From: Caulobacter sp. S45
GTDB lineage: Bacteria; Pseudomonadota; Alphaproteobacteria; Caulobacterales; Caulobacteraceae
NCBI RefSeq assembly: GCF_009765965.1
Contig: NZ_LMUL01000007.1
Location: 1 to 64,000, forward strand
Length of the DNA: 64,000 nt
Reading direction: 5' to 3'
Of the stretch, positions 184 to 54,695 are shown piece by piece. Position 1 is the stretch's first letter. Each line of letters starts with the position of its first letter. The position numbers were made by a program, and so were the translations under genes. The notes below the pieces were generated by a model. The model did no database searches and was not told the origin of the DNA. It worked only from the letters and a program-made list of their open reading frames with translations.

Positions 184-346
184 TTTCCCCTTACCTGCCC
201 GCTAATTTGCGCGGACAGAGCCCCTGCGGTTGATAATGTCACACAACCGAAGTCATTGGCCCGCGGGCGCATTTTTGGACGCCAGGCGTGAAGGCGATGG
301 CGTGACGGGAGACATCCGGGCACAGCGAGTGAGGTGGGTGGCGACC

Positions 347-880
347 ATGGTCATGCCCCACGAACCCGCCGTGCGCCGCTGGCTGGCCCGCTCGCGCATC
401 CCCGAAGACCAGATCGACGACCTGATCCAGGACGCCTATTGCCGGTTCGCCGGCCTGGCCTCAGTCGACGCGATCGCAAAGCCGGGCGCCTATTTCTTTC
501 AGATCGTCCGCAACCAGATCGCCGAAAACATGCGCCGCGCACGCGTGGTCCGAATCGAAACCGTTACGGAACTCGACGCGCTGCCCGTCTTATCAGAGGA
601 GCCCGGCGCCGAACGCATTTTCGCAGCGCGGCGCGAGCTCGCCGAGGTGATCAGGCTGATCGACAGCCTGCCGGACCGATGTCGCGAGGTGATCAGGTTG
701 CGCAAGATCGAAGGCTTGTCGCAGAAGCAGATTGCAAGCCGTCTTGGCGTGACGGAATCGATCGTGGAGAACGATGTCGCCAAGGGCATGCGTTTGATTT
801 CGAATTCGCTCCGCGATGGCGCCGGCGAGAACGACGGGGGTTTAGTGCAGAGGATTCATGGGCGGGCGCGAAACGGCTGA
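347..880 (+). CDS. FecI-like ECF RNA polymerase sigma factor
   Basis: A 177-residue extracytoplasmic-function sigma factor that would direct RNA polymerase to a small regulon, probably the TonB receptor two genes downstream. Sigma region 2 spans about residues 10-70 (DDLIQDAYCRF, then PGAYFFQIVRNQIAENMRR) and region 4 about 95-155 (SLPDRCREVIRLRKIEGLSQ, then the helix-turn-helix KQIASRLGVTESIVEND). The frame is open upstream to a TTG at 230, but ATG 347 is preferred because GAGGTGGG lies 8 nt before it and the family begins near here; ATG 353 is also possible. The 3' end overlaps the FecR gene by 23 nt, indicating translational coupling. In FecI systems the sigma is released when the receptor's STN domain signals through FecR. 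Confidence 0.9.
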   Translation: MVMPHEPAVRRWLARSRIPEDQIDDLIQDAYCRFAGLASVDAIAKPGAYFFQIVRNQIAENMRRARVVRIETVTELDALPVLSEEPGAERIFAARRELAEVIRLIDSLPDRCREVIRLRKIEGLSQKQIASRLGVTESIVENDVAKGMRLISNSLRDGAGENDGGLVQRIHGRARNG

Positions 881-1817
881 GGAGATTGATTCGGCCGCGT
901 TTGGGTGGGTGGCCCGGCTGGACCGGGGCGACCTCGATCCCGAACAGAACGCCGCGCTTGCAACCTGGCTGGCTGGCGATCCGCGCCGCCAGGGCGCGCT
1001 GCTGCGCGCCGAAGCGCTGTGGTCGACGCTCGACGCGCCCCTGGCCGCCGGTCCTCCGTTCGTCAATCCCATCCTCACCCGTCGCAAGACCGCGAGGACA
1101 TGGTCGCGGCGAAGCGCCCTGGCGGGCGCCGGTGCGGCGCTCGCCGCCGGCGTGGCGGGCCTGCTGGTGTTCAACTCGGAGGAAGCGTCTCTCATCACCG
1201 AGGTCGGCGAAGTGCGGCATCTGCCGCTGACCGACGGGTCGACCATCGACATGAACACCCAGAGCCGGGTCCAGGTGGCCATGCAGCCCAGACTGCGGCG
1301 CATCCGACTGCGAGAGGGCGAGGCTTGGTTCAAGGTGGCCAAGAACCCCTCCCGCCCGTTCGTGGTCGAGGCGGGCGATGTGCGCGTGCGCGCTGTCGGC
1401 ACCGCCTTTTCCGTGCGCGTGTTCAATGGCGGCGCCGAGGTCATGGTCTCGGAAGGGGTGGTCGAGGCTTGGCTTGTCGGCGCTCAGGATCGCGCGATGC
1501 GCGTATCCGCCAATGAGAGCGCGGTGATCCGGGAGCGCGCCCCTGCGACCCTGGTGCCGGTTGAACCGCTCCAGGTCGAGCGCAAGCTGGCCTGGCGGGA
1601 GGGCCGGATCGACCTGGACGGCGAGACCGTGGCGCAGGCGGTGGCGGAGTTCAATCGCTACAGCGTCCGCAAGATCAGGATCAGGAACCCCAAGCTGGCG
1701 CAAGAGCGCATCTACGGGGTGTTCATGATCAATAATCAGATCGATTTCGTAAATTCCATCGAGACAGCGTTCAGCGTGAAGGGCGCGATAGATGCGGATT
1801 ATATTACATTATACTAG
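858..1817 (+). CDS. FecR-family anti-sigma factor
   Basis: A 319-residue inner-membrane regulator that holds the upstream sigma factor until the receptor signals. Order of parts: an N-terminal cytoplasmic DUF4880-type domain (residues about 8-60, with FGWVARLDRGDLDPEQ), one membrane span near 90-110 (alanine/glycine rich), a FecR domain about 115-215 (LPDGSTIDMNTQSR-like core, GEAWFKVAKNPSRPF, VRAVGTAF), and a C-terminal secretin-like DUF4974 region that ends IDADYITLY. It starts inside the sigma gene and is followed 112 nt later by a receptor with an STN domain, the standard arrangement for cell-surface signalling. The ligand cannot be deduced. Confidence 0.9.
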   Translation: MGGRETAEEIDSAAFGWVARLDRGDLDPEQNAALATWLAGDPRRQGALLRAEALWSTLDAPLAAGPPFVNPILTRRKTARTWSRRSALAGAGAALAAGVAGLLVFNSEEASLITEVGEVRHLPLTDGSTIDMNTQSRVQVAMQPRLRRIRLREGEAWFKVAKNPSRPFVVEAGDVRVRAVGTAFSVRVFNGGAEVMVSEGVVEAWLVGAQDRAMRVSANESAVIRERAPATLVPVEPLQVERKLAWREGRIDLDGETVAQAVAEFNRYSVRKIRIRNPKLAQERIYGVFMINNQIDFVNSIETAFSVKGAIDADYITLY

Positions 1818-1929
1818 CGAAATTGGCCGCCCCGTAATTTCATAAATCTTTAACAAGGAACGTCACGACCGACCCGTCTTAGCTTCCGACGGCTGCGCTA
1901 ACCGCGCCGCGCGAAATGGGGGCATCAAC

Positions 1930-4692
1930 GTGACCTATCAACACGACTTCCTGTGGAAGCGGACCTTGCTGGCGAGCTCCGCCTTTGTGGCGCTCGCCGT
2001 CGCCCGGCCGGCCTGGGCGCAGACCCATCAATTCAATATCGAGGCCCAGCCGGCCCAGAACGGCATCCCCGCCTTCGCGCGCCAGGCCGGTATTCAGATC
2101 CTCGTCTCGCAGGAGGTCGTGCAGGGCCTGTCCACCCGTCCGGTCAAAGGGCAGTTCGACACGCCGACGGCGCTCCACATGCTGCTGGAAAACACCGGCC
2201 TCGACGCCAAGCCGACGGGCGAAGGCGCCTATACCGTCATCCGCCACGAGGTTGCGCAATCGGCGGTCGCGTCGGTCGACACGGTGATCGTGACCGGGCG
2301 GGTGGGCGTCGACCGCCGCACCCGCGCCGACACCAGCTATTCGGTCAGCGCCATTCCCCAGGAACAGCTTCGCGAGGAAGCGGTCAGCAGCGTCGCCGAC
2401 GCGATCCGCAAGGTGCCGGGCTTCTGGGTCGAGAACTCGGGCGGCGAGGCCAGCGCCAACATCCGGGCGCGCGGCCTGCCGATCGACGGTTACGGCTCGG
2501 TGCAGCTCGAGGAAGACGGCCTGCCGGTGCAGCATGACCCGGCGCTAGGCTATCTGAACGCCGACCAGTCCTTTCGCCTCGACGAGACCATCGACCAGGT
2601 CCAGGTCGTGAGAGGTGGCCCTTCGTCGATCTTCAATTCCAACGCGCCGGGCGGCGTGATCAACTTCATCACCCGCCAGCCCGGTCCCACGCCGGAGGGC
2701 CTGTTCAAGCTGACCGCCGGTGACGACGGCCTCGCCCGCGCCGACTTCTGGTACGGGGCGCAGGTCGACGGCTGGAAGCTCGCCGTCGGCGGTTTCTATC
2801 GCTACGAGAATGGTACGCGCGACCCCGGTTTCCCCCTCAATAACGGCGGCCAGTTCCGGGTCGACGTGGGCCATGACCTGGGCAACGGCTCCATCGACAT
2901 CGATTACAAGCATATCGACGACAAGGTCGGTTTCTATGTGGGCGTGCCCGTCAGCATCAACGGGAGCACGGTCTCAAGCGTCCCCGGCTTCAACGCCAAT
3001 TCAGGCTCGATCCTCGGGGGTGAGAACGCCAAATTCCCCATCTACACGCCCAATGGCCCGTCGCAATACAATCTCGCCGACGGGACCAAGGTCCTCCTGG
3101 ACCAGCTGAGCATCCATGTGACCCAGAATGTCGATGGATGGCACATCGACGATCACTTTCGGGTCCGCAACACCGATCAAGACCGTAATTATCTGACGCC
3201 CTCGGCCGAAGTCTACACCACGAGCCAGTGCCTGAACTCGCAGATCAGCAATTGCCTCAACGGCCTGTCCAATGTCGCGACCAGCGCGTCGGCGCTGTTC
3301 CCCACCATGGCGTCGCTGCAACTCCGCTACGCCGATAACGGGGCCCTGGTGTCGCCGACCGCGAACGGCAACGGCCTGGTGATGCCGAACACGGCCAACG
3401 ACGAAGTCATCTCCGAACACGAGGTGCTCGACGATTTGCGCCTCAGCCGGAAGTTTGAGATCGCCGGCCAGGAACACGATGTCACAATCGGCGCATACTT
3501 CGCGATCGCCGGCGAGACCTTCCATAAGTACCAGGCGACCATCCTGACCGATGTCGAAGACCACGCCCGGCTGGTCAATGCGGTCGCCGTGAACAGCGCC
3601 GGCCAACAGGTGGGCTCCGTCACCGATGACGGCGTGATCCGCGACGGCGCGGGCTTTGGCGACGGCAACGGGCATCAATACACCGAAGCCCTCTATCTCG
3701 CCGACGAGTGGCATATCACGCCCGCCCTGCGTCTCGACGCCGGCGTCCGCGAGGAGCACATGAGCGGAAACGGCGCCTACGAGAATGTGACCTCGGCCAA
3801 CCTCACCTCTGCGACCGGCACTCTGGCCACATCGGCGGTCGCTGAGGGGAACGGGATTTGGACGCCTTACAAGCTCGATTTCTCGGCGGCGACCTGGACC
3901 GTCGGCTTGAACTACCAGTTCGACCCGCGCCAGGGGGTCTTCGTCCGGGCGACCGGCGCCGCCCGCCTGCCCGGAATCTCGAACTACATCACCAACACCA
4001 GCCCGCCGACGCCTGGGTCGGTCGAGACGGCCCACTCGCAGATGTACGAGCTGGGCTATAAGTACTCTCGTCCCTTCCTTGACGCCTACATCACGCTGTT
4101 CGACACCGACACGCAGGACTACGGGCTCGCTTCCCAGCCCGTGCTCAACCCCGCCAGCAACGTCCTCGTCACCGAAGAGGTCAACGGCAAGACCCGCGAC
4201 TACGGCGTCGAGATGGACGGCGACGTCCGGCCGATCGACTGGTTCGACGTGGCCTTCACCGCGACCGTGCAGGATCCGAAGTTCACGCAATTCAGCTACG
4301 CCCTGTCCGCCGGAGCGGCGCCGACGAGCTATGCCGGCAATCAGCTCCTGCGTGTCCCGTACACCAGCTTCGCGGTGAGCCCGTCGGTCCATCTTCTTCA
4401 AGACCGCTTCAAGGCGGGCCTGGATATTGAATACTACGGCTCCCGCTATGCCGACGCCGCGAATACGCAGTATCTGCCCGCCTATACGGTGGTAAGCGCC
4501 AACACCCACTACGATGTGACGCCCCAGCTCACGGTCTACGCCAGCGCCTACAACCTGACGAACACCATCGGGTTGACCGAAGGAAACGCTCGCGCCGGCG
4601 AGGTCGTGTCCACGCTCGGCTCCGGGACGAACTTCGTCGCCCGGCCGATCATCGGACGCACCTTCAAGGCGTCTGTGCTCTACAAGTTCTAG
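1930..4692 (+). CDS. TonB-dependent receptor with STN signalling domain
   Basis: A 920-residue outer-membrane receptor. The GTG start gives a clean signal peptide (hydrophobic core LLASSAFVALAVARPAWA, cleavage after AWA). Next comes an STN domain (residues about 35-105, starting HQFNIEAQPAQNGIPAFA) that contacts FecR in the periplasm, a TonB-box-like segment (DTVIVTGR), a plug domain (VADAIRKVPGFWVEN, then VQVVRGGPSSIFNSNAPGG), and a beta-barrel ending in an aromatic residue (SVLYKF). It is the output and the sensor of the sigma/FecR pair in front of it. The substrate is unknown; the FecI/FecR association is typical of siderophores but also occurs with glycans. A stem-loop follows the stop. 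Confidence 0.93.
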   Translation: MTYQHDFLWKRTLLASSAFVALAVARPAWAQTHQFNIEAQPAQNGIPAFARQAGIQILVSQEVVQGLSTRPVKGQFDTPTALHMLLENTGLDAKPTGEGAYTVIRHEVAQSAVASVDTVIVTGRVGVDRRTRADTSYSVSAIPQEQLREEAVSSVADAIRKVPGFWVENSGGEASANIRARGLPIDGYGSVQLEEDGLPVQHDPALGYLNADQSFRLDETIDQVQVVRGGPSSIFNSNAPGGVINFITRQPGPTPEGLFKLTAGDDGLARADFWYGAQVDGWKLAVGGFYRYENGTRDPGFPLNNGGQFRVDVGHDLGNGSIDIDYKHIDDKVGFYVGVPVSINGSTVSSVPGFNANSGSILGGENAKFPIYTPNGPSQYNLADGTKVLLDQLSIHVTQNVDGWHIDDHFRVRNTDQDRNYLTPSAEVYTTSQCLNSQISNCLNGLSNVATSASALFPTMASLQLRYADNGALVSPTANGNGLVMPNTANDEVISEHEVLDDLRLSRKFEIAGQEHDVTIGAYFAIAGETFHKYQATILTDVEDHARLVNAVAVNSAGQQVGSVTDDGVIRDGAGFGDGNGHQYTEALYLADEWHITPALRLDAGVREEHMSGNGAYENVTSANLTSATGTLATSAVAEGNGIWTPYKLDFSAATWTVGLNYQFDPRQGVFVRATGAARLPGISNYITNTSPPTPGSVETAHSQMYELGYKYSRPFLDAYITLFDTDTQDYGLASQPVLNPASNVLVTEEVNGKTRDYGVEMDGDVRPIDWFDVAFTATVQDPKFTQFSYALSAGAAPTSYAGNQLLRVPYTSFAVSPSVHLLQDRFKAGLDIEYYGSRYADAANTQYLPAYTVVSANTHYDVTPQLTVYASAYNLTNTIGLTEGNARAGEVVSTLGSGTNFVARPIIGRTFKASVLYKF

Positions 4693-5430: not shown

Positions 5431-5914
5431 AGCGGTGATTGGCCTGGTCCATGTACAGCGGCGCACCGGGTTATTACCGAAGCCCGTGGCGCCTGTCATG
5501 CCTTATCCCTTGAAAAGTCTGGCGTGTGCGGGAGAAGAGCGCCGCTAACACATTCATCATTCGGGGTGCGGCCGTCATGACTTTCATTGATCCGGATAGT
5601 GGCGCGCCTCACGCCGTGGAGGTTCCGAACGTCACCACTTTCGCCGAGTCCGAGCTAGAGCGAGCTGCACCCCATCTAGAGATGGCGTCGCGAAACTACC
5701 TCAGACGAACGTCCATTCGCCGCAGCCACAGGTCGGGACCTACAATTAGGTGGACTCAGCTTACGGGGCGCTACCTAAAGATAGGCTTACAATCTCGCCC
5801 CTCAGCAAGAGTGTCGAATGTCTGGAAGCTGGAGCTGAGCTCATGTCGGCTCAGGGCGCGAATTAGACGTTGAGGTCTACCGCGAGGGGGGCGACGCGCG
5901 CCTCCTCTATCCAT
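5431..5914. other. Gap without a convincing gene
   Basis: No recognised gene. A plus-strand frame from ATG 5577 to 5873 begins in a protein-like way (MTFIDPDSGAPHAVEVPNV, then FAESELERAAPHLEMASRNY) but turns arginine-rich and loses coding character after about 45 codons, so it may be a decayed small gene. Confidence 0.35.
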
Positions 5915-6409: not shown

Positions 6410-6514
6410 CTTAAATGTAAATGTTGAGCAGATCGTGGATAGGCGAGAAGGCGCTTCGGGTCACCACCGTCGCGAGTGTTGCGCCCGGAAGCTGCAGTTT
6501 CCGTGTCCGACGTT

Positions 6515-6695
6515 GGGGCTGGGTAATTCGGCCCGAACTACCTCCAAAATCTGCCACTGGGCCGCCGCGCAAGACCGATTCGCGGTGCTTTCGACGTCTG
6601 GCCTCGGGTAGAGCGCGGATGTCGTATATGGGCGCAGATCGCCCGCCGGCCTGGGATGGCCTCTTCGCCTGGAAGCGGACGCCGCGGAGGGCGAG
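6515..6695 (+). repeat. Dispersed repeat B, copy 1
   Basis: A degenerate member of a family recognised by GGGTAATTnCGnCCGnnCTACCT, then a CCGCCATTG-like block, a GGGCGC-ATCTCGCC block and a GGAAGCGG ending. Here the first block is GGGTAATTCGGCCCGAACTA (6531-6550) and the last is CTGGAAGCGGAC near 6670. Other copies lie at about 8105-8320, 9211-9400, 10196-10410 and 54529-54695, with a short piece near 45103-45165. Confidence 0.6.
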
Positions 6696-6746
6696 GAGGG
6701 GGGGGATTGTTGCCAAAGCGAGCGCCTATAGGCTTATCGCCATCGA

Positions 6747-7183
6747 ATGGCTGAGCAATCTTCAGATGGTCCGAGGGTGGGCTGCGGTGTCGCTATCGTT
6801 AGAGATCGAGAGCTGCTGCTGATCCAACGCGCCCGACCGCCCGAGGCGGGCGCATGGAGTCTGCCAGGGGAAAGGTCGACCTGTGGGAGGGGACGGAAGC
6901 CGCGGCTCGACGAGAGATTGCTGAAGAACTCGGTATCAAGCTTGGAACGCTTGAGCTTCTTTGCCTCGTTGATTTGTTTGTGCCTGAAGAACATGGGCAT
7001 TGGGTTTCGCCCGTGTTTTCAGCCAACAAATTTGAAGGCGAGCCAGTGTTGCTTGAACCCGAGAAACACACCGGCCTCGATTGGTTCCAGCTCGACACCT
7101 TACCCACTCCACTCGCTCAGTCTGCTCTTTGGGCTGTTAAAGCACTTCAAGCTCGCAGAGCTTGGCTGGGAGGTTCTGATTAG
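6747..7183 (+). pseudogene. Nudix hydrolase with a one-base frameshift
   Basis: The first frame from 6747 reads MAEQSSDGPRVGCGVAIVRD, then LLLIQRARPPEAGAWSLPG, a typical Nudix N-terminus. At about 6867-6871 one G appears to be missing and the protein continues in another frame with a perfect Nudix box (GKVDLWEGTEAAARREIAEE, followed by LGI; pattern Gx5Ex7REUxEExGU) and a normal C-terminal half ending at 7183. If the frame is restored the protein is about 145 residues. Nudix enzymes hydrolyse nucleoside diphosphate-linked compounds; the substrate is unknown. The gene may be inactive, or the missing base may be a sequencing error in a G-run. It is followed by repeat A1. Confidence 0.8.
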
Positions 7184-7254: not shown

Positions 7255-7440
7255 GGGTCGCCAGCACGTATGAGCGTGGCTCCGGAACTCGCCCTTCACC
7301 ACGTCCGCTATGCGGCTGTGGTGGCGAGTCCGGTTGCCCCCCGGCTTCGGACATTAGGCCGGAGCCTGGGGCCTCTTTCAGGCCCGCTGGATGTCGTCTT
7401 TCTGGCAGAAGGCTGGCGGCGGCTTAGGGTGCATTACGAC
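7255..7440 (+). repeat. Repeat A, copy 1 (about 185 bp)
   Basis: A 185-bp unit beginning GGGTCGCCAGCACG and ending near GCAGAAGGC(T)GGCGGC. It recurs at 11329-11510 in the same orientation at roughly 90% identity by eye. Both follow the stop of a small plus-strand gene. Inside is a long hairpin: CCGGAACTCGCC (7282-7293) pairs with GGCGAGTCCGG (7323-7333), enclosing ACCAC/GTGGT and CCGC/GCGG pairs. Confidence 0.85.
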
Positions 7441-7441
7441 C

Positions 7442-7690
7442 TCACACCCCCGTTTGCGTGACGTGGATCAGAAGGTTTGTTGGTTCATCAATCAGAGTCG
7501 CGCACCAAGTCTGATTGGTGTCGCCAACCGTCTGAAGCCGGAGGCGAATAATATCGGCGCCACGTCTTGACGCGACATCTGGGAATGTCCCTTGCACAGC
7601 ATCCAGCAACCACCCTTGCGGGTTGCTTTTCCGAAGCTCCGTAGTTCTGTTCTCGTTCCCATGCGTTAGGGTGTAGCTGAACAAGGGCAT
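7442..7690 (-). CDS. Small hypothetical protein (82 aa)
   Basis: Unrecognised 82-residue soluble protein beginning MPLFSYTLTHGNENRTTELR and ending HVTQTGV. ATG 7690 is chosen over the in-frame ATG at 7744 because GGAG stands 6 nt upstream. Sequence looks globular, with no membrane span or signal peptide. It ends 2 nt from repeat A1 and is followed upstream by another small minus-strand gene about 100 nt away. Codon use is coding-like but less GC-rich than the core genes. Confidence 0.55.
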   Translation of the reverse strand: MPLFSYTLTHGNENRTTELRKSNPQGWLLDAVQGTFPDVASRRGADIIRLRLQTVGDTNQTWCATLIDEPTNLLIHVTQTGV

Positions 7691-7786
7691 ATTGATCTCC
7701 AGCGCGTGGGAATAACTATGATGGCAGAGACCAATGTCCGCCACGGTGCATCGCTTCTGCCTGAGCGCATATCCAAACGCCGACGG

Positions 7787-8009
7787 CTAGTTATCTGCGA
7801 ATAAGGCGTCGAGAAGCTTTTGAAGTTCTCGCGGCGGTGGGCCGCCCTCCATCATGAAATCATCTATCGAGACGGTACGCTGCTTCCGAGCGCCGTCCGA
7901 AAATTCAGCTTCTTGCTTGACGTGCAAAGTGCGTTCATCGTTTTGAACAAGCGTCCAACGTGAAGTCCGCTCAATAGTAATGGCTTCTGCAAAGATTTTT
8001 TTTCTTCAT
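7787..8009 (-). pseudogene. Small gene with an A8-tract frameshift
   Basis: Translating the minus strand from ATG 8009 gives MKKK and then a run of eight A (complement of T at 7996-8003). Read with seven A, the frame continues for about 73 residues (KIFAEAITIERTSRWTLVQ, then DERTLHVKQEAEFSDGARK and a proline-rich tail ending LLDALFADN) to TAG at 7787-7789. As written, the ATG frame stops after 12 codons. The body looks like a real small protein of unknown function. The extra base could be a mutation, a phase-variable tract, slippage decoding or a sequencing error. Confidence 0.5.
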
Positions 8010-8447
8010 CCGATTTGTGGGCGGGCGCGCCGCCATTCCGCCTTGCCTCTGCTCATATAAGTGGAAGCTTGGAACGTCTGCAATGGGTCGCGCACTGCCC
8101 CGAGCTGCCGTCCCCGGAACCCGCTATTGGCGACGTCTAGAATCGGGTCGATGTAATTTCGTCCGCATGACCCTCAACATCTGCCATCGGGATCGCGTGG
8201 TACGGTCGATTCATCCCCTTTGGAGCGTCTAGAATCTGTCAGAGAGTCTCCGGCGGCTCTGGGCGCGGTTCCGCCGGCGGGCCATCTCAGGGCTTGGCGG
8301 CCGGAGACGGCCGTGCCGAAGGGCAGCGGGGCGGACTCCAGCCGTGAGCACCGACCCAAATTCGCCGTTAGGGCGGCCCTTCTCCGCGTTGCCTCATGGC
8401 GGGCCTGGCGGGCTTCCGCAGAGGGGGAGTGGCCGCAGAGTTGAGGT
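8010..8447. repeat. Gap containing dispersed repeat B, copy 2
   Basis: No gene is supported. From about 8105 to 8320 the sequence matches repeat B: AATCGGGTCGATGTAATTTC then GTCCGCATGACCCT, a CATCTGCCAT block, and a GGCGGCCGGAGACGGCC ending. The copy at 10196-10410 carries the same preceding motif GCGTCTAGAnTCGGGT, so the unit seems to start there. Confidence 0.5.
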
Positions 8448-9062
8448 TCAGGTCAAGGGGGAGCCACCCAATGGCAAAGCGATTGTCGAAGTCGCCTCGA
8501 TGATCTGCTCGGGGCCTCCCTTGGGAGGCCAGATTCCAGCTCCGTAAGCCTTTCCTCTAAGTGCGGCACGCTCCTCTAAGCTGCCGAAGCCCCAGATGTG
8601 CGTAATGCGGGGGGCGCCATCGAGAGCATACATGTTCACCACCAGATGGTCGGTGTATTCACGCGCCGGTGCGATGGCCGCCTTCCATCCGCTCAGCGTC
8701 GGCGACAGGCCGCCGGGTTTGAGCCGATAGGTGCGGAACTCATACATCCCTCCCCAGTCACCGGTTCGGATCGGCGGCAAAAACGGAAAGGGCGCGTAGC
8801 TATCCATCTCCAGCGCTGTGACGACGCTGCCGGCGTTGAACGGATTGTCGCTCAGAAGTGCGCGGCGACGTTCCGCAATCATGTCCTGAGGCGCCTCGAA
8901 CCCGCGCAGCACAATCAGGCGGCCCAGCGTCCCCATCTCCGTCCGCCAGCATCCAAGAAGTTGGCCCCTAGCCCGGCCGTCATTGACCCATGCAGCGGCC
9001 CCTTCTGCGGCTTCCTCAAGCGCGAGCAGCGGGCACGAAAGGGTGGCGAGTTCGCAAAGCAT
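8448..9062 (-). CDS. NIPSNAP-family protein
   Basis: 204 residues with two ferredoxin-like NIPSNAP halves. The second half is the most typical: MYEFRTYRLKPG, a conserved tryptophan, then RITHIWGFGSLEERAALR and WPPKGGPEQIIEA. The N-terminal half is more degenerate (LIVLRGFEA, then RRALLSDNPFNAG). Family members are usually cytoplasmic dimeric alpha/beta-barrel proteins of uncertain function, often near catabolic genes. The start at 9062 gives a full-length family member. It stands alone between repeats with no obvious partner. Confidence 0.8.
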   Translation of the reverse strand: MLCELATLSCPLLALEEAAEGAAAWVNDGRARGQLLGCWRTEMGTLGRLIVLRGFEAPQDMIAERRRALLSDNPFNAGSVVTALEMDSYAPFPFLPPIRTGDWGGMYEFRTYRLKPGGLSPTLSGWKAAIAPAREYTDHLVVNMYALDGAPRITHIWGFGSLEERAALRGKAYGAGIWPPKGGPEQIIEATSTIALPLGGSPLT

Positions 9063-9204
9063 CTTGGCCTCCGTCTTTCACCGGCATCAAGCCAGGAGGA
9101 TGGTCACTGGTTGCAATCTGCCGGCTTGCCTAGCCCAAGCGCGGAAGTCTGGTTTGGGTCGCCCGCCGCCACTTGCGTCGTTCCAGAAACCAGCCCCTTG
9201 CAAC

Positions 9205-9400
9205 GATCAAAGCTGGGAGGGGGTAATTCCGTCCGAACTCCCTCTAATCCGTCCATTGAGGTCGCCCCCAGCAGCGGTCTTATGGCGATCGAGATGTCCG
9301 GAAGCGGGGAGAGCGCCTAGGGCTTTGGGCGCAAGGCCACCGCCGGGGTCCCGTTATTCTCGCGCTTGGAAACGGACGAGTTGGCCGTTGAAGTGGCTCG
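9205..9400 (+). repeat. Dispersed repeat B, copy 3
   Basis: Contains GGGGGTAATTCCGTCCGAAC then TCCCTCTAAT and CCGTCCATTGAGG-type blocks (9218-9262), GGGGAGAGCGCCTAGGGC (9306 region) and an ending GGAAACGGACGAG near 9368-9380. It lies between the NIPSNAP and glycine-rich genes and contains no supported ORF. Confidence 0.55.
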
Positions 9401-9449
9401 GTGGCGCGACGGCTGCCAATCCGACAGCCGCCACGTCGATTCCGTTTGC

Positions 9450-9950
9450 TCAGTAGCCCTGGGCGGAACCGCATCCGTCATTGACCCACTGGTATCTGCC
9501 GCTCGCCTGGTCCCATGCCCATTGGCCGCAGGAACCGCCGTAGGACGAGGCGTCGCCCTGGGGGGGAGGCGCGCCGTAGGCGTCGCCTTGATCATAGCCA
9601 TAAGCCGGGTCGCCGTAGGCGGCGTCGGGGTAATACGAGTTATCGTACCCATAGGCGCCTCCGCCGCCGTACCAACCGTCCGCCAGGGCGGCCCCAGCTA
9701 CTAGGCCCAAGGCTGCAGCACCGTAGCCGTAGCCGCCATTACCGCGGCCAAAACCGCCGCCGCCATGATAGCCGCCGCCGCCGTGGAAACTGCTTCCACC
9801 GCGAGAACCACCGCCGCCACCTCCATGGAAGCCGCCCCCGCCGTGAAAACCGACGCCACCACCGTGGCCGCCGCCGCTGGGAGCCGCCTGGACCGCAAGT
9901 GGGGCCGCAAGCAAAGCAACACTAGCGATCGCTGCAATAATCTTCTTCAA
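9450..9950 (-). CDS. Glycine-rich secreted protein
   Basis: About 166 residues. A Sec signal peptide (KKIIAAIASVALLAAPLAVQA) is followed by glycine/histidine repeats (GGGGFHGGGG units, residues about 25-75), a hydrophobic AALGLVAGAALADGWY stretch, a tyrosine/aspartate/proline region and a C-terminal pair of cysteines (SCGQWAWDQ, NDGCG). The TTG at 9950 is preferred as start because a perfect GGAGGT lies 5 nt upstream; that Shine-Dalgarno overlaps the ATG at 9962, which itself lacks one. Similar glycine-rich exported proteins are found in Caulobacterales and sphingomonads, with unknown roles in the envelope. An AT-rich promoter-like region (9990-10110) precedes it. Confidence 0.75.
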   Translation of the reverse strand: MKKIIAAIASVALLAAPLAVQAAPSGGGHGGGVGFHGGGGFHGGGGGGSRGGSSFHGGGGYHGGGGFGRGNGGYGYGAAALGLVAGAALADGWYGGGGAYGYDNSYYPDAAYGDPAYGYDQGDAYGAPPPQGDASSYGGSCGQWAWDQASGRYQWVNDGCGSAQGY

Positions 9951-10195
9951 TTTGACCTCCATTAGAGGCCGAAGGTCGCCTAAGGCTGGCCACCGGTCAT
10001 AAACTTAGCGTTTGAGAGGAAAGTAAACCTTCCCCATCACCGTCCATTTTAATATGTGGACCGTTCCGTACAATTTAAGGGGCCGACTTCCAGGCGTGCT
10101 GGTTTTTTTAATCTGCTCTTCGATGGAACCAAACGGCGTCTGAGACGAGGCGAGCGAGCGCTTGCCGGTAGAAAGGGTCGCCTATCCCCCTGAAT

Positions 10196-10410
10196 GGTCG
10201 TCCCGAAACCCGCCGTCGCCAGCGTCTAGATTCGGGTGAGGGTAATTTCGTCCGCGCTACCTGAAAGCGGCCATTGGACCGGCTTGATGGCCTTCCTACG
10301 GGCGACCGGCGCGTCCGAAGTCGGGGAGAACGCGCAAGGCGGCAATGGGCGCGATCTCGCCGCCGGCTCCGCCTGCTAGCTTGGTGGCCGGAAGCGGCCA
10401 TGGCGGTCGG
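10196..10410 (+). repeat. Dispersed repeat B, copy 4 (best preserved)
   Basis: Blocks in order: GCCAGCGTCTAGATTCGGGT, GAGGGTAATTTCGTCCGCGC followed by TACCTGAAAGCGGCCATTGG, GGGCGCGATCTCGCCGCCGG, and GGCCGGAAGCGGCCATGG. The last block is self-complementary (GGCCGCTTCCGGCC-like). No ORF here is supported. Confidence 0.6.
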
Positions 10411-10432
10411 CAGGGGAGGGTGGATTAAAACC

Positions 10433-10573
10433 TCACTGCCAGACGGCTATGGCGCCATCGGGCAGGTGAAGCACCATTGCTTCCGGGCTAGTCGAAGCCT
10501 CATCGCGTAAATCAACCGAGAGGAAGGTGCCGCTCTTGAAGTACAATTCGACGGTCTCCCCATGAACTTGCAC
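10433..10573 (-). CDS. Very small hypothetical protein (46 aa)
   Basis: A GTG at 10573 opens a 46-codon frame (MQVHGETVELYFKSGTFLSV, then SPEAMVLHLPDGAIAVWQ) ending at TGA 10433-10435. The sequence looks like two or three beta strands of a small globular protein. It begins 13 nt after the stop of the next upstream minus-strand gene, which supports a two-gene unit. No family recognised and the ribosome site is weak. Confidence 0.4.
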   Translation of the reverse strand: MQVHGETVELYFKSGTFLSVDLRDEASTSPEAMVLHLPDGAIAVWQ

Positions 10574-10586
10574 GGCAGAAATCGTT

Positions 10587-10787
10587 TCAGAGTGCGTCGA
10601 TTACCTGAGCGAGGTCAGTCAACTCCCCAATTGTGGGCGGCGGCTCGGACTTAGGGCCTAGGTGCTCATTGTGCCCGAACAGCCCCCACCGCCCCGCCGC
10701 GCACTCGCGAAGGGCCTTCAAGAGCAGGGGTCGGTACTCGGCTTCGAGTTCGTCGATCCGCCCCACGAGCTTATCGTCCTTGGACAC
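10587..10787 (-). CDS. Small hypothetical protein (66 aa)
   Basis: Sequence VSKDDKLVGRIDELEAEYRP is followed by LLLKALRECAAGRWGLFGHN and a short acidic C-terminus ending AQVIDAL. It is mostly helical with a conserved-looking AAGRWGLFG segment that I recall only from uncharacterised proteins. GTG 10787 is chosen because an AGGAGG run lies immediately upstream, although the spacing is short; an ATG at 10865 gives a 92-residue form with an unlikely N-terminus. Confidence 0.5.
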   Translation of the reverse strand: MSKDDKLVGRIDELEAEYRPLLLKALRECAAGRWGLFGHNEHLGPKSEPPPTIGELTDLAQVIDAL

Positions 10788-10903
10788 TCCTCCTCGATAC
10801 CATTTTGGCGGGCTGACCGATACCGGACCTTCCCGACATCCGCTTAGGGTGGAAAGCGGACTCATTGCTGGCTACACTCCAGAAGCAGCAGGAGGCTTAG
10901 GGA

Positions 10904-11317
10904 TTGGCGGCAATCAGCAGAACCGTTGACGCTCTAAGGCTCTTCGGCGACGACCTCATCCCCGCAGAGATCAGCTCTTTGCTGGGATCAGAACCAACTG
11001 CGTACTCAACGAAAGGCGGTGTTCGTTCACCGTCGCCGGGAAAAGATGTAGTCGCGAAGACGGGATCATGGAGATTGCGGGTCGAGGATCGGTCACCCGG
11101 CGACCTCGATGGCCAAATACGAGAGCTTCTATCTCAGCTCACCTCAGACCTGTTTGTCTGGCAGGATCTTTCTCGACGCTACCGATGCGATATCTTCTGC
11201 GGGCTCTTTATGGAAAAGGGCAACGAGGGGGATGAACTCCAGCCAGATACGATGGTGATGATTGGTACGCGAGAGTTGTGCCTTGGTTTCGACATCTACG
11301 ACTCCACACCCGACTAA
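10904..11317 (+). CDS. DUF4279 domain protein
   Basis: 137 residues. The family pattern is visible throughout: LRLFGDDLIPAEISSLLGSE, a KGG turn, GSWRLRVEDRSPGDLDGQI, LLSQLTSDLFVW, RCDIFCGLFME and the C-terminal LGFDIY. DUF4279 proteins are small, of unknown function and often encoded singly in accessory regions. The start is TTG with GGAGG 8 nt upstream (10891-10895). Repeat A2 begins 12 nt after the stop, mirroring the arrangement behind the Nudix gene. Confidence 0.8.
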   Translation: MAAISRTVDALRLFGDDLIPAEISSLLGSEPTAYSTKGGVRSPSPGKDVVAKTGSWRLRVEDRSPGDLDGQIRELLSQLTSDLFVWQDLSRRYRCDIFCGLFMEKGNEGDELQPDTMVMIGTRELCLGFDIYDSTPD

Positions 11318-11328
11318 TATTACGTTTT

Positions 11329-11510
11329 GGGTCGCCAGCACGCATGAGCGTGGCTCTGGAAACTCGCCCTCCGCCACGTCCGCTATGTGGATGTAGTGGC
11401 GAGTCCGGTTGCCCCCCGGCTTCGGACATTAGGCCGGAGCTTGGGGCCTCTCTTCAGGCCCGCTGGATGTCGCCTTTCTGGCAGAAGGCGCGCGGCCGCT
11501 AAGGGCGCTA
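11329..11510 (+). repeat. Repeat A, copy 2 (about 185 bp)
   Basis: Same unit and orientation as 7255-7440. Long identical stretches include CGAGTCCGGTTGCCCCCCGG and CTTCGGACATTAGGCCGGAG. The hairpin persists: AACTCGCC (11361-11368) faces GGCGAGT (11398-11404) and CCGC faces GTGG, the latter with a G-U wobble where copy 1 has GCGG. It ends at the stop codon of the serine hydrolase gene. Confidence 0.85.
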
Positions 11511-14727: not shown

Positions 14728-14958
14728 CTCGGTCCGATTTGTGATCATGCATTTGCTCGCGTTGCCCAATGCCGCAACGCCGTCGTGGCGCTGCGGTCCT
14801 GATGACGTCAGAAGTTCAAACTGCCAAGGCGCATGGCGCTCCGGGATGCTAGAGGGCTGCCTTGGCCACGCCAAGCGCCTTTACCGTGTCAAGCATCATC
14901 TTGACGTGGAGGTCACGGTTTGACCTTACGCGCGAGCCTGATTCAGGAACGCCTCCCC

Positions 14959-15064
14959 GCCGGCCGCGCCTCTCCTTGTTCTGCAACGGAATGCGATGAC
15001 GGTTGCCTCCGAACAGGAAGCAAGCTGGGGCGGAGCTAGGCCCGGAACATTTGCGCTGACAATG
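14959..15064. repeat. Repeat C, copy 1 (about 106 bp)
   Basis: Nearly the same as 26308-26414 in the same orientation (about 88% by eye): CTTGTTCTGCAACGGAATGC, GCCTCCGAACAGGAAGCAAG and an end ATTTGCGCTGACAATG. The reverse complement of the end, TGTCAGCGCAAAT, is identical to the outer part of the IS6-type left end at 44206-44218, so this repeat is probably an insertion-sequence terminus. The IS6 right-end remnant starts directly after it. Confidence 0.65.
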
Positions 15065-15065
15065 T

Positions 15066-15210
15066 CACGCCACCTCGTCAGCCGCACAACCTACAAAGAC
15101 CGACGCTCAGCCGCCCTGGCTGAGTGGGGGCAGGTCGTGGGATAGAGCTCGCTCGGGTTTGGGAGAGCTACGCCCAAGTGGAGACACGTTCGCGTTGGAC
15201 TGACAGCACC
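15066..15210 (+). mobile_element. IS6-type right-end remnant
   Basis: The last 24 codons of an IS6 transposase (HLVSRTTYKDRRSAALAEWG) with stop at 15143-15145, then the conserved right flank ending in CTGACAGCACC at 15200-15210. The 5' nine-tenths of the element are missing. The remnant ends 75 nt before the sulfite dehydrogenase start, so outward transcription from the IS end could reach that operon; this is inference. Confidence 0.85.
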
Positions 15211-15285
15211 GCGATCGGAATTGGATAAGAGCCTGATTTCCCTGCCGCTCCGTTCGTGACAGATTCCTTCCGTGGAGGACCGAAG

Positions 15286-26003: not shown

Positions 26004-26307
26004 AGCAGGGCCGCCACGCGGAGGGCTGCCGAAGTGATCGGCTGAATCTTGAAGACGACGGCGCGGTCTCGATTTTTCAATCTCGGCTGTTCGCGCAGAT
26101 CGCCCACGTCTTGGACATCCATTTCCTGATGACCCCGCTAGCTAGGGTGAACGCCGGCCACGATTTTGGCGGGCTCATTAAGCATGTGATGGGGTGTTCT
26201 GATCTGGACGGCCACGCCGCGATGGATGGCGAGGGCGCTGTCAACCAAACGCACCTGGAGCCGTTGTTCACGCCTTTTTAGGGCAGATGGATCAAAACTG
26301 CAGGGCC

Positions 26308-26414
26308 CGCCGGTTGCGTCCCTTCTTGTTCTGCAATGGAATGCGATGACGGCCGCCTCCGAACAGGAAGCAAGCCGGGGCGGAGCCACGCCCGGAATAT
26401 TTGCGCTGACAATG
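26308..26414. repeat. Repeat C, copy 2 (about 107 bp)
   Basis: Second copy of the unit at 14959-15064, with CTTGTTCTGCAATGGAATGC, CTCCGAACAGGAAGCAAGCC and the end ATTTGCGCTGACAATG. It lies 28 nt upstream of the propeller-protein start, so any outward promoter it carries would drive that gene. Confidence 0.65.
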
Positions 26415-26442
26415 CCGCTTAGGCGTCAAAAGGGGGAAGCCC

Positions 26443-30388: not shown

Positions 30389-30907
30389 GTGCATAAGGCG
30401 CAGCCGGCGCCGCTGATCGAGAGCTACCTGGCGGCGCGACCGGATCTGGTGCGCTTTTTCACCGCGCGCCTGCACTCCAGGGAAGCGGCTGAGGACTTAG
30501 TACAGGAAATGTACGAGCGTGCGTTGCGCGTTCCTTCCGATGAAATTATCGCCAATCCAATGGCCTACCTCTATCGCCTGGGGTCGAACCTGTTGCTGGA
30601 CCGGGCCCGCTATAACGGCCGGCGCGCGGCGCGCGAGACGGCCTGGTCTGGGCTGAGCGGCGTCAGGCTTGGCGGCGTGGATATCGTCGACGCGCCCGCC
30701 GCCGATGATGCGCTGGACGCCAGACAACGCCTGCACCGTTTGCTCGCCGCCGCTGAGCAATTGCCCCCGCAGACCCGGCGCGCGTTCCAGCTTCACAAGC
30801 TGGAGGGGCGCAGTCATGCCGAGACCGCCGTCGTGATGGGCGTGTCGCGTAGCGCCGTGGAAAAGCACATCAGCGCTGCGCTCAAATTCTTGCTGGCGAA
30901 GCTGTGA
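30389..30907 (+). CDS. FecI-like ECF sigma factor, second module
   Basis: 172 residues. Region 2: PDLVRFFTARLHSREAAEDL, VQEMYERAL, then NPMAYLYRLGSNLLLDRAR. Region 4: QLPPQTRRAFQLHKLEGRSH and the helix-turn-helix AETAVVMGVSRSAVEKHISA. The start is set at GTG 30389 (MHKAQPAPLIESYL); TTG 30383 is an alternative and the frame is open further upstream without family similarity. It heads a module with FecR 73 nt downstream and an STN-containing receptor after that, the same order as at 347-4692. Confidence 0.88.
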   Translation: MHKAQPAPLIESYLAARPDLVRFFTARLHSREAAEDLVQEMYERALRVPSDEIIANPMAYLYRLGSNLLLDRARYNGRRAARETAWSGLSGVRLGGVDIVDAPAADDALDARQRLHRLLAAAEQLPPQTRRAFQLHKLEGRSHAETAVVMGVSRSAVEKHISAALKFLLAKL

Positions 30908-30980
30908 TGCGGCGCAGATTTGAGGTGTTCATTGCTCGGCGGCGTCTTTCATTTGGGCTGAAGAGGGAGATCGGGCGCAG

Positions 30981-31964
30981 ATGATGGGGCAGGCGGATCA
31001 CGGCTCGCCCGCATTGCGCGACCAGGCGGCCGAATGGGTGACGCGTTTATCCGGCGACTCCGTCGTCGAAGCTGATTGGCTGGCTTTCCAGGCCTGGCTC
31101 GATGCAGGGGGCGAAGGCGATGCGCGGCGCGCGGCGTTCGATCAGGCGCAGGCCATCTGGCTGGAACTGGATGCGGCGGTTCAACCCATTTCAGCTGCAG
31201 GTCGTCCCTTCGCCCGCGCCGCGAGGCGAAGCATCGGAGACGCCAAGTGGTGGGGCGTCGGTCTGGCGGCGGCATGCGTTTGTGCATTTGTGGCGCAGTC
31301 GCTGAGGACGGTTTCCGTCCCCGCGGCTCCTGTGTCCACGACCTATGCAACCGGGATCGGGGAGCGTCGGATCGTGCGGCTGCCGGATGGCACGCGCATC
31401 GATCTCAATGCGGGCTCGCGCCTGACCGTCGCCTATGTCCCCGGTGAGCGTCGCGTGCACATGGAAGAGGCGGAGGCGGCGTTCGACGTGGTGCACGACG
31501 CCAGCCGGCCGTTCGTGATCACCGTCGGTGACGGACAGGTCCGCGTTCTAGGGACGGCGTTCGATATCCGACACTATGGGGGCGACACCCAGCTCAGCGT
31601 GTCGCGTGGCGTGGTGCAATTAACTACCCAAGGACAGGCGATCCGTTTGGCCCAGGGGAGCGCGGCTTCTCACCATGAAGGCGGTTCGATCCAGACGCTC
31701 CATCAAGATCCCGGGGCGGCGCTGGCTTGGAGAGAGGGCCGACTGCTCTACATCGACCAGCCCCTGGCCCGCGTGGTGGCGGACCTGAACCGGCAGTTTC
31801 CGCGTCCAATACGTGTGGCGGACGCGCGGGCGGCTAAGCTCCAGTTCACCGGTGTGATCGTACTCGGCACGCAAGCGCAGACGCTCCGGCGTCTGACGGC
31901 CTTGCTGCCGCTTCAGTCGCGGGTTGTCGGGGACGAGGTCGTGCTAAGCTCACGCCGACCCTGA
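30981..31964 (+). CDS. FecR-family anti-sigma factor, second module
   Basis: 327 residues: N-terminal DUF4880 domain (AAEWVTRLSGDSVVEADWLA, WLDAGGEGDARRAAFDQAQ), one membrane span near residues 92-108, FecR domain with RIVRLPDGTRIDLNAGSRL, FDVVHDASRPFVITVGDGQV and VLGTAFDIRHYGG, and a C-terminal secretin-like domain (AWREGRLLYIDQPLARVVAD). It would transmit the receptor's signal to the upstream sigma factor. ATG 30981 and ATG 30984 are both possible starts. The receptor begins 21 nt after its stop. Confidence 0.88.
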   Translation: MMGQADHGSPALRDQAAEWVTRLSGDSVVEADWLAFQAWLDAGGEGDARRAAFDQAQAIWLELDAAVQPISAAGRPFARAARRSIGDAKWWGVGLAAACVCAFVAQSLRTVSVPAAPVSTTYATGIGERRIVRLPDGTRIDLNAGSRLTVAYVPGERRVHMEEAEAAFDVVHDASRPFVITVGDGQVRVLGTAFDIRHYGGDTQLSVSRGVVQLTTQGQAIRLAQGSAASHHEGGSIQTLHQDPGAALAWREGRLLYIDQPLARVVADLNRQFPRPIRVADARAAKLQFTGVIVLGTQAQTLRRLTALLPLQSRVVGDEVVLSSRRP

Positions 31965-31985
31965 CTTCCGCCTCCCTGGCTGCAA

Positions 31986-34391
31986 TTGAAGCGACGTAAC
32001 CGCAGGGCCGCCATGGTGGCCACATTCATTGGCGCGGTCCCGTTCGCGGCCCGAGCGGCGGAGCCAGGCATCCGCTTCGACGTGCCGGCGCAACCGGTTG
32101 CAGACGCTGCGCTCGCCGTCGCTTTGCAGGGCGGCCTCTCGCTGAGACTTGAAGCGACCTGTCACGGCCGCAGCCCCTTGCTGGCGGATCGACTTACCGC
32201 GAAGCAGGCGATGACGCGCGTCCTGGCCGAGAGCGACTGCGCACCGGTCTGGATCGACGCTCATACGCTTCGTATCGGAAGGCGGCCTACATCAACGCCG
32301 CCGCTAGCGCGCGGGCCTGTGACGTCCCCGGCCAAGTCCACTAGCCCGAGCGAGGTGGTCGTGACCGCAGCCAAACGCGATGTCGCAGCTTTCGACCTGC
32401 CTGGTTCGGTGACGCAGGTCGACGCGGACCGGCTCTCCGCGACCGACAGCCTGGATATCCGCGACCTGCGTCTACTGGCTTCTGGCATGACGGTGACGAA
32501 CCTGGGCCCGGGCCGCGACAAGGTGTTGCTGCGCGGCCTTTCGGACGGGGCCTTCACGGGCCACACCCAGTCCACCGTCGGCATCTATTGGGAGGAAACG
32601 CCCACCACCTACAATGCTCCCGATCCAGACCTGAGATTGGTCGACGTTCAGTCGGTCGAGGTGCTGCGGGGGCCGCAGGGCACCCTCTACGGGGCCGGCG
32701 CGATCGGCGGGGTCGTCAGCATCGTGCCGAACAAGCCCGCGTTCGACCGCGCATCCGGTTCGCTGTCGGCCACCGGCGCCGCCACCGCTTCGGGCGCGCC
32801 CAGCGCTGCGGGCGAGGGCGTGTTCAACACCCCATTGCTGGACGGCAAGGCCGCCGTACGCCTGGTCGCCTATGGCGAAGAGGATGGCGGCTACATCGCC
32901 GAGCCCCTGCTGGGCGTGACACACTCCAATGGGGTCCAGCGGGTCGGGGTGCGGGGGGCGTTCAGCTTCAAACCGACCCCCGATTGGATCGTCACGCTCG
33001 GCAACACCTATCAGGACATCTATAGCGCAGACACGCAGTACACGACCGGCGGCGCCGACAGCTTGGCGCGGGATACGCAGGTGCGCGAGCCGCACGACAA
33101 CGATTTCGAACAGGCCTATCTCGACATCTCGGGACGTGGCGGCTGGGGCGACGTCCGCGCGGTGACTTCGTTCATCCACCACGAGTTCGACAGCCGCTAC
33201 GACGCCACCGACGCGCTGGCCGATTTCGGCGGGCCAGCAGGCGCGCCGGCAGCTTACGACGACGACACCTTGATCCGTCTGACCTCCCAGGAGCTCGACT
33301 ACCACCCACCGGCCTGGGGGCGGTTGAAACTGCTCATGGGAGCCTACGGGGCTTATGGCGACGAACACGAACAGACCCGGCTGGGCCTGACGACCGGCGC
33401 GCCGGCCCTTTATACCGAGGACCGCACCGACCGGCTGGTCGATTTGGCCCTGTTCGGTGAAGCCGATTACGCCCTGAGCTCGCGGTTCGACCTCACCCTG
33501 GGACTGCGGGCCTTCTATGCGCAACGGCGAACCGTGTCGTCGGTGGTCGAGGGGGGAGACCGCGATCCGTTTTCGGGCAGCACCTCAATGCACGATGTGG
33601 CGCCCAAGCTGTCGCTCCAATATCGCATCGCCCCTTCGGCCATGGCCTATATCCTGGCTTCGGAGGGCTATCGGGCCAGCGGGTTCAACACCGCCGGGAC
33701 CATTGGGCAGGCCTTCAGTCCCCAGGGCGGCCAGCAACCCAACCGCACCTATCAACCCGACACCCTCTGGAACTACGAGATCGGCGCCAAGGTGCAGGCC
33801 TTTGACGGCCGGCTCGATGCGCGCACCGCCGTCTATTACGACATCTGGCGCAAGCTGCAGGCGGACCAGTTCCTTCCGTCCGGCCTGGCCTATGTCGCCA
33901 ACGTGGGCGACGCCCAGGTCTACGGCTGGGAATGGGAAGTCAGCGTTAAGCCGATCAAGCGGTTGACGCTGCAGCTGGGCGCGCTGTTCACCGCTCCGGA
34001 CCTCCATGAGGTCGATCCGACCTTCGCAGCAGGGCGGTCCGACTTCACCCTGCCAGGCGTACCGCGTCGCTCGATCAACGGGCAGGTCGGTTATGACCTT
34101 CCCCTGGGGAACGAGCACACCCTCTCGTTCGACGCGACGGCGGTCTATGTCGGACACTCCTACCTCTTCTTTGGTCCGCAACGTTCCGCGACCATGGGCG
34201 ACTATCTGGACGCGAGAATTTCCGCGGCTTTCAAGTGGCCTCGCTGGGCTTTGACCCTGTTTGTCGAGAACCCGGCGAACAATCGCGCCGACACCTTCGC
34301 CTTCGGCAACCCATTCAGCCTAGCGGCCGCCCCTCAGACTACGCCGCTCCGCCCACGGACAATCGGCCTGACGGTGAAGCGCGACTTCTGA
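31986..34391 (+). CDS. TonB-dependent receptor with STN domain, second module
   Basis: 801 residues from a TTG start. Signal peptide (NRRAAMVATFIGAVPFAARA), STN domain (IRFDVPAQPVADAALAVALQ to about residue 100), TonB box region SEVVVTAAKRD, plug (VTQVDADRLSATDSLDIRDL; VEVLRGPQGTLYGAGAIGGV) and a barrel ending TIGLTVKRDF. Plug and barrel resemble the generic IroN/CirA-like receptors of Caulobacterales. It is the terminal gene of a sigma/FecR/receptor operon; substrate unknown. A weak hairpin follows. Confidence 0.92.
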   Translation: MKRRNRRAAMVATFIGAVPFAARAAEPGIRFDVPAQPVADAALAVALQGGLSLRLEATCHGRSPLLADRLTAKQAMTRVLAESDCAPVWIDAHTLRIGRRPTSTPPLARGPVTSPAKSTSPSEVVVTAAKRDVAAFDLPGSVTQVDADRLSATDSLDIRDLRLLASGMTVTNLGPGRDKVLLRGLSDGAFTGHTQSTVGIYWEETPTTYNAPDPDLRLVDVQSVEVLRGPQGTLYGAGAIGGVVSIVPNKPAFDRASGSLSATGAATASGAPSAAGEGVFNTPLLDGKAAVRLVAYGEEDGGYIAEPLLGVTHSNGVQRVGVRGAFSFKPTPDWIVTLGNTYQDIYSADTQYTTGGADSLARDTQVREPHDNDFEQAYLDISGRGGWGDVRAVTSFIHHEFDSRYDATDALADFGGPAGAPAAYDDDTLIRLTSQELDYHPPAWGRLKLLMGAYGAYGDEHEQTRLGLTTGAPALYTEDRTDRLVDLALFGEADYALSSRFDLTLGLRAFYAQRRTVSSVVEGGDRDPFSGSTSMHDVAPKLSLQYRIAPSAMAYILASEGYRASGFNTAGTIGQAFSPQGGQQPNRTYQPDTLWNYEIGAKVQAFDGRLDARTAVYYDIWRKLQADQFLPSGLAYVANVGDAQVYGWEWEVSVKPIKRLTLQLGALFTAPDLHEVDPTFAAGRSDFTLPGVPRRSINGQVGYDLPLGNEHTLSFDATAVYVGHSYLFFGPQRSATMGDYLDARISAAFKWPRWALTLFVENPANNRADTFAFGNPFSLAAAPQTTPLRPRTIGLTVKRDF

Positions 34392-36059: not shown

Positions 36060-36389
36060 GGTCGGGTCTTTCTCGAAGTGGATCAGACGGTGCGTGGATG
36101 GTCTGGACCTAGATGTCGTGAAGGTCCGTATTTAGGCGATCGGCTCAGGGGGCAAAAAACCCGTTCCGGCTGCTCCGAAAGTCCGCTGTCCGGCAGAAAG
36201 GTTAGGCGATGCCCCGCGGGCCTTGCCGCCAGGCCACCGGCCGCGGGCGAATCTCCTGATCAATAAGTCCCGCATGCATCGCCAGCTGGTGCAGGGAGGG
36301 CGATTCTCGGTAGTCCAAAGCACAGTAGCATTGCGATTCCGGCGGCGAGAGTTAAATGTCGGCCATCGGAATGTGCAATGGGAGTAAAA
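36060..36389. other. Intergenic region between divergent genes
   Basis: About 330 bases separating the GlcG-like gene (minus) from the small cytochrome c gene (plus). No coding frame is convincing. The 36330-36380 part is relatively AT-rich and probably holds the cytochrome promoter; a run CAAAAAACCCG occurs near 36152. Confidence 0.4.
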
Positions 36390-44190: not shown

Positions 44191-44200
44191 GGCGCGATCT

Positions 44201-45065: not shown

Positions 45066-45373
45066 CGCTTTCGCCCGCGGCCTCCAGGCTCGCGGGCCCT
45101 TGCCTCCACAAGCGGACGCCACGAACCGCCGTTGAGGGCGCAATCTCGCCGGCTGGACGGCGCAGCGGTTGACCGAACTGTTCGCTGCATGGGCGCGCGA
45201 CCGCGCAACCTGCGCGCGACCAGGTTGCCCGCAGCCGAACTCGGCCTGCTCGACCAGGACGTCAGTGACGCCAGGATGGTCGAGGCGATGGTCGTCCATC
45301 CGATCTTGAGAACCGGCCCATCGGGAGCACGCCCAAGGGCGTCCAGCGCCACGCCCTCCGCCGATGGACAAGC
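45066..45373. other. Gap with a fragment of repeat B
   Basis: No gene is supported. At about 45103-45165 the sequence CAAGCGGACGCCACG, GCCGTTGAGGGCGCAATCTC and GCCGGCTGGACGG matches the middle of the dispersed repeat B family. The rest shows nothing recognisable. Confidence 0.45.
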
Positions 45374-53896: not shown

Positions 53897-54085
53897 TTTT
53901 AGCGACCGATCGCCCAGCCTCGTGAGCGTGAGCTTTGAATCAACTACCATTCAAGTCCGGTGTTGGGATTGGTTATTGTGGCTGAATAGTCCAAGCAACC
54001 GCCATTAGAGTCGGCCTGAGCGAGAAGTTCAAGGGCGCTCGAATGTCGGAATTCTGGAGGACAGCGGATGTCGGATATCGGCGCT

Positions 54086-54451: not shown

Positions 54452-54528
54452 GCATACCTTCTGGAGGAGCGCCGGGTCGCGGGCGCCCTCTGCTCTTAGC
54501 AGTCGCGCCGAATCCCGCCGCCGGCAAT

Positions 54529-54695
54529 GTCCGGATTCGAGAAGCCGTAATCTCGTCTGAACGCCCCCAAAGCCGCCAGTGAGGCCGCCCCAACCGTCGG
54601 GCTCATAGCGATCTGGACGGCCGGAGTCTGGCAGAAATGGCCGGTCCATTGTGGGCGCTATCTCGCCGGCAGGCCATCTTCCAAGCTCGTACGGT
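54529..54695 (+). repeat. Dispersed repeat B, copy 5
   Basis: Blocks AGAAGCCGTAATCTCGTCTG, AAAGCCGCCAGTGAGGCCGC, AGAAATGGCCGGTCCATTGT and GGGCGCTATCTCGCCGGCAG match the family in the accessory strip at 6.5-10.4 kb. It lies between the GIY-YIG and LLM genes. Confidence 0.55.

Follow-up and report, generated by a model that had tools for sequence, protein, structure and literature searches.

Cassette arrays and short mobile repeats

In integrons, and in attC arrays that have lost the integrase IntI (CALINs), the cassette genes mostly lie in one direction, with an attC site at the 3' end. Modules of the pdif type are mobilised by XerCD, through 28-bp XerC/XerD dif-like sites of alternating orientation. 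The repeats described here come from a window of 64,000 nucleotides of Caulobacter sp. S45 (the whole stretch of DNA that was analysed), and they share some properties with each of these systems. As in integron arrays and CALINs, oriented sites about one gene apart are found among accessory genes, with junctions at their ends and IS110-type elements inserted at the site. The resemblance is one of logic and outcome and not of family, since every attC or IntI feature that was tested fails. With pdif modules they share the arrangement of gene modules between sites of a (candidate) Xer-like tyrosine recombinase, whose gene is enclosed by inverted cores (R and B). The sites, however, are about 180 bp long with repeated GTCCGC motifs instead of 28 bp and dif-like, and the recombinase is not the host XerC/D.

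Similarities also exist to MITEs and REPIN/RAYT-type repeats, which are likewise short and non-coding with an autonomous relative elsewhere, but here nearly all copies have one orientation and the gene encodes a tyrosine recombinase instead of a DDE or Y1 transposase. Terminal inverted repeats and a target duplication are the norm for DDE-type MITEs. The ends of the present sites are asymmetric in alignment, and no empty target was found. Finally, the recombinase resembles the small tyrosine invertases FimB and FimE in its size of about 200 residues with little beyond the catalytic domain, whereas its flanking DNA and distribution suggest mobility rather than the phase switching of a single promoter.

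A run of same-strand sites in the window

A sequence-only reading of this DNA had pointed to two 185-bp repeats in the same orientation, at 7255-7440 and 11329-11510. Both are real, lying on the same strand with 91% identity over 178/180 nt, albeit with limits that we correct to 7255-7432 and 11329-11508, and each is indeed preceded by a small plus-strand gene (NUDIX and DUF4279, respectively). The block between them, described as holding only small unrelated genes, does contain such genes, but also three diverged copies that had been overlooked (at 8075, 9147 and 10171), as had a partial copy at 5815 and a full-length one at 6451, ahead of the first unit. The two units first noticed are the closest relatives in a run of same-strand sites that occupies 5.8-11.5 kb of the window with a spacing of about 0.7-1.1 kb. 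The sites and passenger genes are as follows.

5815-5859, plus strand: partial site, right-end 45 nt only (right-end HMM, E=4e-4)
6451-6635, plus strand: diverged full-length site (model R2, E=8.7e-22)
6657-6715, plus strand: right-end module B, adjoining the preceding site, with inverted core AAGCGGAC (B HMM, E=3e-6)
6854-7183, plus strand: passenger gene, NUDIX domain (Pfam PF00293, E=5e-11)
7255-7432, plus strand: first noted unit, full site from GGGTCGCC to GGGTGC (BLASTN, sequence-only model)
8075-8266, plus strand: diverged full-length site (R2, E=5.6e-26)
8448-9062, minus (opposite) strand: passenger gene, NIPSNAP (Pfam PF07978, E=2.6e-19)
9147-9332, plus strand: diverged full-length site (R2, E=1.5e-24)
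10171-10352, plus strand: diverged full-length site (R2, E=4.4e-24)
10373-10425, plus strand: right-end module B (B HMM, E=4e-6)
10904-11317, plus strand: passenger gene, DUF4279 (Pfam PF14106, E=4e-18)
11329-11508, plus strand: second noted unit (BLASTN, sequence-only model)
53905-54084, plus strand: site (R2, E=1.1e-13)
54471-54658, plus strand: site (R2, E=1.5e-22)

Other features of the window include a weak right-end match at 36155-36206, which overlaps with a match to B on the minus strand (E=2.7e-6) and is possibly an inverted remnant. An IS of about 838 bp (56432-57271, ends GGCTCTGTCAG/CTGACAGCACC), which we judge to be IS6-like, recurs throughout the array contigs in numerous copies and fragments, with remnants in the window near 1-183, 15029-15211 and 63186. 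A second family of short repeats (GGCACTGTCA ... GCTGACAATGCC), which looks like a MITE, occurs at 14956-15064 and 26234-26416 and also in contigs C14, C15, C19 and C8. Two gene trios at 230-4692 and 30389-34391 resemble sigma factor/anti-sigma/TonB-receptor genes, a naming based on sequence appearance only.

A dispersed and oriented repeat family

The two noted repeats are members of a dispersed family of about 90 elements located between accessory genes. BLASTN with the first unit identified 15 places in the genome, and 112 matches at E<=1 were found with a sequence-only model of 46 copies, both far beyond chance. A covariance model built from 12 copies gave 64 matches at the same threshold. 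Copies confined to one duplicated segment would have spoken against the sequence-only reading, and this is not what is seen. No match to the unit was found by BLASTN among plasmids and phages, and a literature search by the motif letters gave nothing related by title among the matches listed. The exact core pattern is present in 73/199 family genomes, although a reversed-pattern control also matches in many.

The 46 full copies can be aligned end to end. They start with GGGTCGCC and end with (A)TGTCSGCWWTGGGCGC, the terminal GGGCGC being near-invariant, and GTCCG-type motifs recur inside. The most conserved part is the right end (last 45 nt), for which matches at E<1e-3 number 70 on the family strand and 1 on the other. 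In 19 of 89 cases the right end is followed after 11-40 nt, with no gene between, by module B (60 nt), characterized by inverted cores GCGGACAT and terminus GGGTAGGGT.

Within a given contig the copies are, with few exceptions, on a single strand. This includes the 2.76-Mb contig C9, where the copies are far apart and are all placed in one replichore by GC skew. According to the strand-corrected GC skew, the repeats follow the G-rich (leading) strand in eight contigs (seven, plus C6). Such a bias, which extends to copies dispersed along 1 Mb of C9, could be taken to indicate a KOPS-type chromosome-organisation signal kept on the leading strand. We consider this very unlikely, as the copies are 180 bp long, strongly variable and clustered in accessory regions, and the rule is broken by two of them (C2:72705 and C5:191054). 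A link between orientation and replication is only suggested, because contigs that belong to one replichore do not count as independent cases. In Vibrio, the orientation of the superintegron relative to replication matters for its stability (PMC11023631). The copy at C2:72705-72868 (minus strand) is itself a clear site (E=1.6e-11), reversed relative to the rest of its contig.

Neighbouring sites are most often separated by a single gene, at a median spacing of 1.6 kb, with gene calls made by a simple codon model and not by a standard annotator. The gene upstream of a site is on the same strand in 40 cases and on the opposite strand in 37, and the downstream gene in 35 and 41 cases, respectively. 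Since flanking genes occur in both directions, there is no consistent 3' placement, and the idea that the sites always follow a small gene has to be abandoned.

Folding of the repeats

Each repeat had been described as able to fold into a long imperfect hairpin, in which one inner pair changes from GCGG to GTGG and still pairs by G-U wobble. The long hairpin is confined to a close subfamily; 0 compensatory changes were counted in 12 copies, a lower number than in shuffled sequences, and no consensus fold was obtained from the 46 diverged copies, so that neither conservation nor covariation of the hairpin is upheld. The accompanying suggestion of a structured RNA element (a small RNA or 3' UTR element) carried along with the small genes is not supported either. 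Single copies are more stable than shuffles (z -3.1 and -1.6), but the minus strand is about equally unusual (z -2.8), and an Rfam search gave no match at the gathering score. Together with the lack of compensatory changes and of a consensus structure, this makes an RNA element extremely improbable.

Junctions at the site ends

Array contigs were aligned to each other, matches consisting only of IS or repeats were removed, and a breakpoint was defined as an abrupt stop of >=90% identical non-IS DNA. Of roughly 37 such breakpoints that are independent, about 9-10 are no more than 15 bp away from a site end, compared to 0.6% for a random position. Junctions between near-identical and unrelated DNA thus cluster at the site ends, which supports recombination at the sites. 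A 963-bp gene copy (95.5%), for example, stops at CCGCTATGGG and is then followed by different elements. In contig C14 a 120-bp stretch common with C9 meets a 630-bp stretch common with C6 at the core (CGTCTGCAAT/GGGCGC), the two stretches being unrelated and each having a near-identical copy elsewhere.

The main rival explanation is that the repeats are inert MITE-like insertions and that the shuffled junctions result from ordinary homologous recombination between copies, and not from site-specific exchange. It is consistent with two junctions that fall on a GTCC motif in the interior of elements, as expected from homologous recombination between repeats, with the abundance of IS copies and small IS-like repeats in these regions, and with the fact that the resident recombinase gene is broken (see below). 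Most site-associated junctions, however, are found at the outermost few bases instead of being scattered along the 180 bp, and the adjacent 40 bp outside are less than 68% alike. We regard this explanation as unlikely, though it is the most serious of the rivals. Neither an empty site nor a circle was seen; no syntenic empty site for C9:1251241 was found in the genus genomes, palindromic empty target sites are absent in this genome, and no complementarity was found between the flanking arms of the element or of the gene module (p=0.54 and 0.995).

The right core is interrupted by IS110-type elements in three copies (product MGQVVTIGLDLAKSVFQ; C15:234.2 kb, C19:31.2 kb and C19:about 103.3 kb), at an identical spot, in the way that IS1111-attC elements insert in attC (PMC11187229). 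These insertions, the one-gene spacing and the uniform orientation would also suit true integron cassettes, i.e. a CALIN. The attC identity of the sites is contradicted by the missing cores, as GTTRRRY near the 3' end and the RYYYAAC...GTTRRRY pair were each found in 0/46 copies. Moreover, the fold is not conserved and the primary sequence is, the genes flank in both directions, the candidate recombinase has a catalytic domain only, and no IntI with its specific insert scored above the cut-off (TIGR02249) in three genus genomes, so that a CALIN is hardly credible.

A small tyrosine recombinase adjoining the sites

The only copy found in this genome of a gene for a small tyrosine recombinase is located in the window and is broken.

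44178-44195, plus strand: short right-end core GATGGCGAATTAGGGCGC, which precedes the recombinase remnant (direct reading; too short for HMM)
44440-45065, plus strand: broken gene for a tyrosine recombinase of about 208 residues, with a frame change and an in-frame stop (intact homolog in G002)
45085-45145, plus strand: B-like right end after the remnant, CACAAGCGGACGCCACG...GAGGGCGC (direct reading; no HMM hit listed)

An intact-looking homolog, 90% identical to the remnant in its C-terminal part, is encoded in another genome of the genus (G002), preceded at about 90 bp by a full 180-bp site and followed at 29 bp by B. An intact recombinase is also present in Caulobacter sp. 602-1 (locus L199). 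The residues R, K, HxxR, H and Y are conserved (alignments A5 and A6; PF00589, E=4e-16), and the predicted structure is that of a catalytic domain of the Xer/Cre/IntI type without a core-binding domain. Matches to NCBIfam models (XerA, XerC, small invertase) fall well short of the cut-off, including that to NF007370 (E=1e-5).

Scanning of public genomes yielded at least 80 named loci, and the family is represented in 442 plasmid records and at no fewer than 576 confirmed loci. In Caulobacter, Brevundimonas, Phenylobacterium and Hyphomonadaceae, a right-end site or B is often found within about 150 bp of the gene and on its strand. Among 79 recombinase loci, eight site hits (E<1) are near the gene, all on the same strand, in 78 kb, compared to eight in 733 kb. 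B hits (E<5) were found just downstream in nine cases and never upstream. Not every locus has both ends by HMM. The gene thus adjoins att-like sites, as is characteristic of mobile elements with a tyrosine recombinase. Flanking inverted repeats reach a rank p<=0.05 at 11/75 loci, several of the strongest being built of the GTCCGC motif. Inverted repeats that contain such a motif, or a related one, enclose the gene in Sphingomonas, a Hyphomicrobiales MAG, Polynucleobacter and Pseudomonas. Direct repeats were found around 0/75 recombinases, and the site motif was not highlighted by k-mer enrichment around them. At three Pseudomonas loci (L242, L250 and L254) the inverted repeats end in GGCCGGTTAGCGAC, a different but related motif.

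Three integrases of G001 and G002 (L063, L064 and L066), which we take to be of IS91 type, were dropped as candidates, since the only IntI-profile hits in the genome studied here are two other loci, which we judge to be XerC/XerD-like.

Proposed origin of the arrays

On balance we lean towards the explanation that the 180-bp repeats are the left end and recombination site of a minimal mobile element, gene-less relatives of which seeded cassette-like arrays. It builds on the observed repeat family, its orientation, the clustering of junctions and the recombinase genes adjoining sites or B in related genomes. Against it stand the failure to find an empty site, a circle, a palindromic empty target or the expected arm complementarity, the broken state of the single resident gene, the recombinase loci at which the HMMs do not recover both ends, and the junctions inside elements. 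An intact element would consist of the 180-bp left end, about 90 bp, the gene for the recombinase of about 208 residues (catalytic domain only), about 30 bp and the right end B of about 60 bp with its inverted cores. In this genome, whose own recombinase gene is broken, the sites would be about 90 relatives of the element that lack the gene or one of the ends, scattered through accessory regions with an almost uniform orientation. Exchange of strands at the ends, at GTCSGCWWT beside GGGCGC or GGGTCGCC, would have joined unrelated genes between sites, with cassette-like arrays as the outcome. We infer that the recombinase cuts these sites; the bases exchanged are presumably those named, and the genes may move as circles or cassettes. 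The earlier proposal of an attC-like recombination site lacking attC cores is thereby largely retained, given copies about one gene apart in one orientation, junctions at their ends and a tyrosine recombinase.

More tentatively, these arrays could represent an undescribed cassette system, in which a tyrosine recombinase with only a catalytic domain acts on long double-stranded sites with multiple motifs, and not on folded attC, with integron-like arrays in Caulobacterales and related loci in many Proteobacteria.

Reports of true integrons in Alphaproteobacteria are very occasional, and the reasons for this were called unclear (PMC9024848). If the explanation proposed here is correct, a different, small recombinase that has oriented sites and arrays of its own would be a functional counterpart of the integron in this class. 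It would also account for a family of intergenic repeats, and would provide a testable role for a recombinase family with 442 plasmid records and at least 576 confirmed loci.
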